In this document: positions 17,988 through 20,068 of the stretch, piece after piece | Layout of the letters: every line of letters begins with the position of its first letter | Position numbering within the stretch: position 1 is the stretch's first letter | From: Stentor roeselii | Lineage: Eukaryota; Ciliophora; Heterotrichea; Heterotrichida; Stentoridae | DNA: 64,000 nucleotides | Assembly (NCBI GenBank): GCA_006503475.1 | Contig: RSEH01000143.1 | Span: 57,924-121,923, forward strand | Direction: 5' to 3' | Position numbers and translations under genes: made by a program | Notes under the pieces: generated by a model | The model's database searches: none | Told to the model about the DNA's origin: nothing | The model's input: the letters and a program-made list of their open reading frames with translations, nothing else

Positions 17988-18641
17988 CTACTCAACCTTC
18001 AGTTTTTTCTTTCTCTGCTGGAACATATAAAGGTACAAATACGGTGCGCCAAAAGTAAATGCAGGGACAACAACTATCCAGAAAAAATATAAGAAATCAA
18101 AGCTAAAATTCCAAGAATTGGGCATTGTAAATGAATTGATTCTTGGGCAACACTTTTTGAAAATTTCATAAGCATCGTAGTAGACCATGATTTCAGATAC
18201 AAAGCCCAGAGGATACAAAGGAATAAACATAGTATACCTAGCCCAGTAGATCCATCGATTCATCCCAAAAGTATCATTGACGAAGTAGTACCCGTATCGT
18301 ATAACTTCAGAGCAAGACCACGCAATCATAACCATGAAGATCCAGTAGCACTAAATAGTTATTACCCCAGGCACCACATCCATTGCACCAAAAATGTTAA
18401 TTACTCTTCCTGTAAGTTGAAGAAGAGTTGGAACTAACGGAGAAGGTGATATTTTAAAAATCGAATGAAATACCTGATTTTTTCTTACTTCTAGAAACAT
18501 CGACATCTGGAGTAATTTCAAGTGAAAACTAATGGAATGGTCTTTGTATATATCCTTTGGGCCTTGTGTCATGATGCGGACTAACAGAACTGACCAACCT
18601 AGTAACTGAAGAAAGTTGTAGGTTGTCATGTAGAGCTTCAT
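17988..18641 (-). CDS. 3-hydroxyacyl-CoA dehydratase (HACD/PHS1 family)
   Basis: The coding sequence has one 15-nt intron (18351-18365), giving 212 residues. HACD performs the third step of very-long-chain fatty acid elongation in the ER, dehydrating 3-hydroxyacyl-CoA. Family marks are YNFLQLLGWSVLL near the N-terminus, WSCSEVIRYGYY and the catalytic YPLGFVSE, in which Tyr, Gly and Glu have the Y-x2-G-x3-E spacing of yeast Phs1. About six hydrophobic segments are visible. The C-terminus RKKKLKVE is a basic ER-type tail. The ATG at 18641 is used; the frame open before it has only TTG. It is divergent from ENY2, with starts 88 bp apart. Confidence 0.9.
18351..18365 (-). other. 15-nt intron in the HACD gene
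   Basis: On the minus strand the sequence is GTAATAACTATTTAG, phase 0, with a terminal in-frame TAG. Splicing joins the GAMDVVPG segment to CYWIFMVMIAWSCSE, restoring the conserved HACD core. Confidence 0.93.
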
Positions 18642-18729
18642 TTTTATATACACAAATATTCCCGACCTCACATCCAAAAATCAAAAAAATAATCCCCAAC
18701 CAGTTTCAGCCTAAATAACCGCCATAAAA

Positions 18730-19056
18730 ATGTAATCCCTAGAAAGGAACCAAAACGAACTGAACCTGAAACAGCGAAAAGAGGCAATCGAGGAGAAGCT
18801 GATCCAAACAGGTGAAAAAGAGCGACTTTTGGAGTACCTTCGTCAAAAACTGATGGAAACCGGTTGGAAAGACGAGCTGAAGAACTACTGCAAAGGTAAT
18901 CGAAACTCAGAACTGATTCGAAACAAGGGTCTAGACAAAATCACTGTTCCCGACCTAGTCGAAGAGCTGAAGCCAAGAGCCCGAGCGACGGTTCCAGCGA
19001 AGGCGAAAGAAGAGCTATTAGCCCGTATAAAGACTTTCATAGAGAACAACCCTTAG
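18730..19056 (+). CDS. ENY2: ENY2/Sus1, SAGA DUB and TREX-2 subunit
   Basis: The coding sequence is join(18730..18731, 18747..19056), giving 103 residues. ENY2 is a small helical subunit shared by the histone H2B deubiquitinase module of SAGA and the TREX-2 mRNA export complex. Visible hallmarks are [36 protein letters not shown] and the Pro-containing [13 protein letters not shown] helix, all aligned over the full family length. The initiator codon is unusual: AT comes from the first exon and G from the second, because a 15-nt intron cuts the ATG. The unspliced RNA would read ATG-TAA. The only other in-frame starts (TTG or later Met) would delete the first conserved helix. The stop lies 4 bp from the convergent MORN gene. 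Confidence 0.93.
18732..18746 (+). other. 15-nt intron splitting the ENY2 start codon
   Basis: GTAATCCCTAGAAAG fits the local consensus (GTA start, A at position 10, AG end). The two bases before it are AT and the first base after it is G, so the ATG exists only after splicing in this frame. Confidence 0.85.
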
Positions 19057-19060
19057 TTAA

Positions 19061-20068
19061 CTATTCAATCCACCTGATCCTCTTTCCAAACTTCCACTCG
19101 CCCTTCTTAACCCTTTTTCCTTTTTCATAAAAAAAAGCGATTCCGTGTTGTTTTCCCATTTTCCAAGTCCCTTCATAGCGTTTGCCTTCTGCCCAACGAT
19201 AAACTCCGAAGCCTTCTTTGAGACCATCAACGAACTCTCCCTCGTACACCCGCCCGTCAGGCCACTTCAGGATTCCCTTGCCGTGCATTTTGCCGTCTTT
19301 CCAGGCACCTTCATAGACCCTCCCGTCATTCCAGGAGTACTGCCCGTTGCCTTCGATTTGGTCATTGTGAAAGGACCCTTGGAACTTGGACCCGTCGAGC
19401 CATTCGATGACGCCCGAGCCTTTTTTTACACCTTTTTCGTAAGTCGCGACACAAACTGACCCATCAGGGTAAAATTCAGTTCCCCTTCCGCTGTGTTCTC
19501 CGTCGTGCCAAGACCCGCTGTATCGAAACTTCTGCTTTGGACAGTTCAAATCGCCTTCTCCGTGAAAGTTTCCATTTCGAAAAGACCCTACATAAACATC
19601 TCCGTTATTTTTCACTAAAGTGCCACGACCTTCATATAAATAATTCAAAATTTGCCCTTTGTAAAAACTTTCATTGGAAAAAATAAGACCTTCTGTTAAA
19701 ACTTCAGGATTTTTCAGAGAAGGACTGAAAAAAAATTGGTTGTTGTTTAAATTTATCAGTTCTCCGTCGAGTAAATAGTCGAAATCAGATCGACTTTGAA
19801 GAATTGATAATAATGATGCACCGAGGTAAGGCCTGATGTCGATTTGAACTGAGGTTGAAACGGGAGAGGCTCTTTTTTTTTGACGTCTTAAAAAGTGCTT
19901 TCGAGAGAAGTAAGAACGGACTAAGGCTTGAATGCTTTCTTCGATTGGGTCTATTTGGAGATCGATTAGTTCACTTTCAACTACTTCTTGTTGGTACTTG
20001 TTTGGCACTTCAGGACTTGAAAGCGCGATTTGCTCTTCGATGTTACTGACGCAACTGCAGGTTCCCAT
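19061..20068 (-). CDS. Acylated IQ/MORN-repeat protein
   Basis: The 335-residue protein begins MGTCSC, which suggests myristoylation plus palmitoylation. An IQ-like basic segment (IQALVRSYFSRKHFLRR, about residues 43-60) could bind calmodulin or centrin. From about 130 to 325 there are roughly eight MORN repeats, each with the Y-x-G-x-W/F core and G-x-G turns (for example YEGAWKDGKMHGKG). MORN proteins scaffold membranes and cytoskeleton in protists; cortical location is an inference. It lies 4 bp tail-to-tail from ENY2. Confidence 0.92.
   Translation of the reverse strand: MGTCSCVSNIEEQIALSSPEVPNKYQQEVVESELIDLQIDPIEESIQALVRSYFSRKHFLRRQKKRASPVSTSVQIDIRPYLGASLLSILQSRSDFDYLLDGELINLNNNQFFFSPSLKNPEVLTEGLIFSNESFYKGQILNYLYEGRGTLVKNNGDVYVGSFRNGNFHGEGDLNCPKQKFRYSGSWHDGEHSGRGTEFYPDGSVCVATYEKGVKKGSGVIEWLDGSKFQGSFHNDQIEGNGQYSWNDGRVYEGAWKDGKMHGKGILKWPDGRVYEGEFVDGLKEGFGVYRWAEGKRYEGTWKMGKQHGIAFFYEKGKRVKKGEWKFGKRIRWIE

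Follow-up and report, generated by a model that had tools for sequence, protein, structure and literature searches.

A probable 15-nucleotide intron at the start codon of ENY2 in Stentor roeselii and its counterparts in an AMPK/SNF1-like kinase family

Results

The ENY2 locus

The window, a stretch of 64,000 nucleotides of the Stentor roeselii genome, carries on its + strand a gene with two short introns (Table 1), which is ENY2/Sus1 as judged from its predicted product. The spliced product of 98 aa, with MNQNELNLK as its predicted N-terminus, matched all 83 columns of the Pfam family EnY2 (PF10163) with an E-value of 3.6e-28 and 98.1 bits (cut-off 27). It also matched human ENY2 (4dhx; E 5e-29) and yeast SUS1. 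The five residues that intron 2 would encode are absent from the aligned homologous proteins. The A-rich context at positions −4 to −1 of the ENY2 start matches that of 146 modelled starts.

Both flanks of the gene are narrow. The divergent neighbour (17988–18641, − strand) encodes a PTPLA domain (PF04387), contains two 15-nt introns and lies 88 bp from the ENY2 start. On the other side, a convergent MORN-repeat gene is modelled to end at 19061, which leaves four bases (19057–19060) beyond the ENY2 stop. At this distance, the two genes must produce either overlapping transcripts or transcripts whose 3′ ends are extremely short.

Table 1. Features of the ENY2 locus (positions in the window)
Feature	Position	Strand	Remark
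ENY2 gene	18730..19056	+	
Split start codon, bases 1 and 2 (AT)	18730..18731	+	AAAA directly before
Intron 1, 15 nt, GTAATCCCTAGAAAG, within the start codon	18732..18746	+	weak consensus (G11, AAG acceptor)
Exon 2, from the start-codon G to the G before intron 2	18747..18895	+	
Intron 2, 15 nt, GTAATCGAAACTCAG	18896..18910	+	in frame, without stop
Exon 3 including the stop TAG	18911..19056	+	
Next in-frame ATG (Met37)	18853..18855	+	start there loses domain columns 1–25 of 83
Intergenic region, 88 bp, common to ENY2 and the divergent PTPLA-domain gene	18642..18729	.	

Tiny introns and genetic code of the surrounding genome

Genes were modelled in 264 kb (the window and 20 pieces of 10 kb) using a home-made gene model, which was trained on the same sequence as it was applied to. 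Genome-wide searches covered 44.4 Mb in 522 contigs, the window included, and the kinase and pattern loci described below were seen as 10-kb pieces and 248-nt flanks. Gene density in the modelled 264 kb is high. The introns are 15 or 16 nt long and favour GTAA, an A at position 10 and a terminal YAG; position 4 is an A in about three-quarters of them. Introns of 15 or 16 nt have been described for Stentor (PMC9505925), and those of Stentor coeruleus share length, GTA start, A10 and AG end with the introns found here according to that description. The introns described for Blepharisma stoltei likewise have 15 nt (PMC9942806).

In the gene model, TGA fitted better as a stop than as a sense codon, the difference being about 100 nats, and a code with TGA as Trp was rejected on this ground. 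Among 154 complete genes of at least 100 aa, 86 end with TAA, 49 with TAG and 19 with TGA. The genetic code of this heterotrich ciliate thus appears to be the standard one.

A probable intron within the start codon

According to the preliminary description, the ENY2 start codon is split by a 15-nt intron and the unspliced RNA reads ATG-TAA. Direct reading confirmed this arrangement: A18730 and T18731 are followed by a 15-nt GT..AG segment and then by G18747 and AAC, and without splicing the sequence is ATG TAA. The TAA at 18733–18735 interrupts the ENY2 frame upstream of the domain. Position 18730 is the sole + strand ATG between 18628 and 18853, and the ATG at 18628 itself lies inside the oppositely oriented neighbour gene. 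Similarly, the segment at 18732–18746 is the sole + strand 15/16-nt GT..AG segment within 18643–18790. A scan of introns of 14–17 nt yielded no alternative intron that produces a start and no alternative ATG, and the + strand of the intergenic region contains no other ATG and no 15/16-nt GT..AG segment. The spliced frame alone opens the whole of ENY2, as had been claimed, since a start at the next in-frame ATG would cost the first 25 of the 83 domain columns.

The gene model still chose intron 1 when the 15-nt intron profile was built without it. Masking of the ATG cost 9.9 nats and shifted the modelled start to 18853. The 528,000 positions on the two strands of the 264 kb contain five sites at which AT and G flank a 15-mer scoring at least as high as intron 1, a count that includes the ENY2 site and any real internal introns. 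From this frequency, simple arithmetic gives a probability of about 2e-4 for a chance match among the approximately 20 available in-frame places.

A second ENY2 gene (L023:1480-1782, − strand; G000:C354:114004-114252) is located on contig C354 of this genome. It encodes a protein of 101 aa, which matches EnY2 with an E-value of 3.9e-20 and is 41% identical to the window ENY2. This paralog is intronless and begins with a plain ATG. Its Met aligns without a gap with the Met that splicing would create in the window gene, and nine residues precede QRKE in both copies. The aligned plain Met is the strongest independent evidence for the split start. No relative of ENY2 was found in the viral_contigs or genome_contigs collections, and the window's genome is the only heterotrich genome that the analysis covered.

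Sequence, homology and the paralog together lend good support to a start codon that would be made by splicing and thus to a dependence of full-length ENY2 on splicing, as the preliminary description had proposed. Intron 1 is presumably removed from the RNA, and unspliced RNA would not be translated into ENY2.

Intron 1 is a weak member of its class

Intron 1 scored 8.4 bits, which is below 45 of the 47 other 15-nt introns (median 13.1), and intron 2 reached 13.6 bits. The expectation that intron 1 would fit the local 15-nt consensus therefore held in part: GTAA, the A at position 10, the terminal AG and the length are all present, whereas the G at position 11, the AAG acceptor and the low score depart from it. 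The preference at these positions is not absolute, as a pyrimidine is absent from position 13 in two of the 47 other introns and G11 is found in one, with the restriction that these 47 were picked by a profile disfavouring G11. Compared with the introns described for S. coeruleus (PMC9505925) and B. stoltei (PMC9942806), the AAG acceptor and G11 are atypical, and intron 1 differs from them further by its position within a start codon.

Search for split start codons in the genome

The pattern AT-GTAAN5ANNYAG-G (YAG class) matched 146 sites in the genome, compared with 20 for the reversed pattern, so that real introns between AT and G should account for many of the matches. One hundred of the 146 matches were listed, of which 96 were classified; of the other four, one is the kinase L123 and three are located in L003 or in the window. 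Among the 96, seven were flagged as split starts, 14 were open upstream, 14 followed an ATG by a few codons, 32 were coding in another frame and 29 fell into no class. An internal or near-start intron is thus supported by coding evidence in 60 of 96 cases (14 + 14 + 32). Six of the seven flagged splits were accepted, five in kinase genes (L030, L033, L040, L052 and L090) and one, L073, in a gene unrelated to ENY2 or the kinases. The first 54 residues of the L073 product matched no Pfam family. The seventh, L100, was left out: within the stretch of sequence covered, its sole upstream in-frame stop is a TGA 18 codons away, and the intervening 18-codon stretch looks coding. Six loci (L025, L027, L051, L062, L091 and L092) were rejected as start splits, each lying a few codons behind an in-frame ATG. 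The proteins of L025, L027, L051 and L062 start with MSFPQM-KLD or a similar sequence, and their 15-nt intron splits an ATG codon located five or six codons after the start.

For the RAG class (a purine before the terminal AG), to which ENY2 and the kinases L105 and L112 belong, 72 matches were obtained compared with 47 in the control. The 15 most intron-like of these, as judged by eye, included no clear split and two that were open upstream. A split after the first base of the codon (A|TG) showed little excess, with 108 matches compared with 86 in the control; 24 of the 108, selected by eye for good intron sequence, comprised no clear split and three that were open upstream. The A|TG position accordingly did not confirm the background rate of start-codon introns.

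If introns were placed uniformly, about 7.6 AT|G splits would be expected genome-wide, a figure that uses the 49 introns counted in 178,923 coding bases together with approximately 27,600 extrapolated genes. The three independent lineages detected (ENY2, the kinases and L073) are, for an incomplete search, in line with this expectation.

A start intron at one shared place in a kinase family

Using 37 residues of one split-start kinase as query, we obtained 25 family members with E ≤ 1e-6; as 150 of 169 candidates were scored, the family has at least 25 members. The loci are labelled L104–L123 and L124–L148, and 5′ ends were fetched for 20 members besides the five found by the pattern. In the one member tested (L030+L130, 149 aa), the kinase domain was recognized with an E-value of 7.1e-43 (Pkinase). 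Its best PDB match was AMPK alpha-1 (4.4e-47), and it is closest to AMPK alpha, SNF1 and MARK.

An AT|G split at one shared place was seen in 13 of the 25 kinases (the five seeds and eight of the 20 others), a proportion which overstates the unselected share of 8/20 because the pattern that led us to the family picks out splits. Eleven of the 20 non-seed members have a plain ATG without a split, including the most distant member, L122, whose frame is open further upstream and whose start is unsure. One member is ambiguous (L108; G000:C505:60838-61088) and was not counted as split. Its 15-mer, which starts with GTAC, keeps the frame open, so that one ATG would serve as the start with or without splicing. 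All 13 kinase start introns begin with GTAA, and their unspliced RNAs hence read ATG-TAA. This uniformity needs no selection to explain it, because five of the 13 were chosen by a pattern demanding GTAA and about three-quarters of all introns have an A at position 4.

A tree built from 130 columns shows the split and the plain kinases intermixed, with poor branch support. The split labels required six changes, compared with a mean of 8.1 after shuffling, and a value as low was reached in 47 of 500 shuffles, indicating weak clustering. The presence of the intron at exactly one place in distant members is most simply explained by an old intron that was lost several times. From the sequences, a single old start intron with repeated loss is therefore likely in this family. 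A second, internal 15-nt intron occurs at one shared place in 11 of the 25 kinases (L108 included); the frequencies of the two introns do not differ significantly (Fisher p 0.78). Overall, start introns of the kinases score no lower than other introns (Mann–Whitney p 1.0).

Excess of G after the branch-site A

ENY2 intron 1 and six of the 13 start introns of the kinases have a G directly after the branch-site A, compared with six of the 60 coding-supported introns from the YAG-class pattern. For the start-codon introns including ENY2, this gives a Fisher p of 0.0018 in a post hoc comparison whose rows are not independent, the kinases being related. The internal kinase intron has G11 in one of 11 cases, which for the kinase start introns alone yields p 0.08. 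The excess might mean that start-codon introns are not just ordinary ones. A mobile start-intron cassette, suggested by the identity of ENY2 intron 1 and the start intron of kinase L112 at 14 of 15 bases, was rejected because two of the 47 other introns also match some kinase start intron at 14 of 15 bases.

Discussion

The reading that we favour, with a probability of roughly 0.83, is that the ENY2 start codon is split by a 15-nt intron, an ordinary tiny one that is tolerated at this position and not a device built for ENY2. A spliceosomal intron would follow the second base of the codon, and splicing would join AT to G and create the sole AUG that opens the whole ENY2 frame. The unspliced RNA would present an AUG-UAA start-stop and give no full-length ENY2 from that AUG. 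Start-codon introns would arise at about the background rate and may then persist for long periods, as in the AMPK-like kinases. Tolerance is suggested because the kinase start intron is about as frequent as an ordinary internal one (13 and 11 of 25, respectively). Likewise, since the number of lineages agrees with the expected one, the splicing dependence of ENY2 can be seen as a by-product of intron placement that is tolerated. The presence of intron 1 is probably close to selectively neutral. Tolerated drift is also a simpler account than a dedicated quality check on a SAGA/TREX-2 subunit, as put forward in the preliminary description: nothing specific speaks for such a check, the paralog has a plain start, the kinases share the split, and the background rate stands against it.

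Two regulatory readings were also considered. Start-codon introns may constitute a retained regulatory class in energy/nutrient-type kinases and ENY2, in which retention gives AUG-UAA and the weak branch-site G11 is a shared feature; splicing efficiency would then directly set translation. We regard this as unlikely. More narrowly, and with slightly less likelihood, the weak intron 1 may act as a regulated switch, its retention giving an AUG-UAA message and less ENY2, so that a SAGA/TREX-2 subunit would be under splicing-coupled feedback. The unusual weakness of intron 1 and the G11 excess that it shares with other start-codon introns would fit a switch, and so would two known systems. Yeast SUS1 contains two introns; the first has non-consensus sites and, depending on growth conditions, is described as retained in more than 15% of transcripts (PMC4691836). 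The window ENY2 belongs to the same protein family and resembles it in having two introns with a weak first one; regulation of retention has been shown in yeast (PMC4691836) and would be a hypothesis for the window gene. Start-stop elements (AUG-stop) in 5′ leaders are thought to pause ribosomes (PMC11057154). The AUG-UAA on unspliced ENY2 RNA is similar to these, but would exist in the unspliced RNA only and vanish as splicing makes the true start. Against a switch stand the paralog, which manages without the intron, and the kinase start introns, which are neither weaker (p 1.0) nor commoner than an ordinary intron. By analogy with yeast SUS1, a regulatory use of the ENY2 start intron is possible. 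Intron 1 of the yeast gene presumably leaves its start codon unsplit.

If the 15-mer were not an intron, translation would have to begin at a near-cognate codon (for example a CTG downstream of 18736) or at Met37. The weak acceptor and the in-frame CTG codons just downstream would agree with this. However, the Met of the paralog aligns with the spliced Met, conserved domain lies upstream of Met37, and the intron signals are found exactly at the only ATG, which makes such a start very improbable. A real start in a coding or non-coding upstream exon joined by a longer intron, outside the 14–17 nt covered by our scan, can practically be dismissed given the reported Stentor intron lengths of 15 or 16 nt (PMC9505925) and the mere 88 bp to the divergent neighbour, with no other + strand ATG there.

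The favoured reading, a tolerated start-codon intron, provides a natural set of genes in which translation is expected to depend on splicing, namely ENY2, at least 13 AMPK-like kinases and L073, with paralogs that lack the start intron alongside. Start codons split by introns occur in other eukaryotes, and translation there needs splicing. The present case differs from these in that the introns have 15 nt and recur over much of one kinase family. Literature searching for split, interrupted or disrupted start or initiation codons led nowhere, which is no proof that the phenomenon is unpublished, and the term ‘start codon’ has no occurrence in the main texts of PMC9505925 and PMC9942806. The set allows a clean comparison for the questions whether splicing is coupled to translation start and how start-codon introns come and go. 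It also bears on how efficiently the spliceosome deals with 15-nt introns close to the 5′ end. Gene finders that demand an intact ATG will truncate or miss split-start genes.
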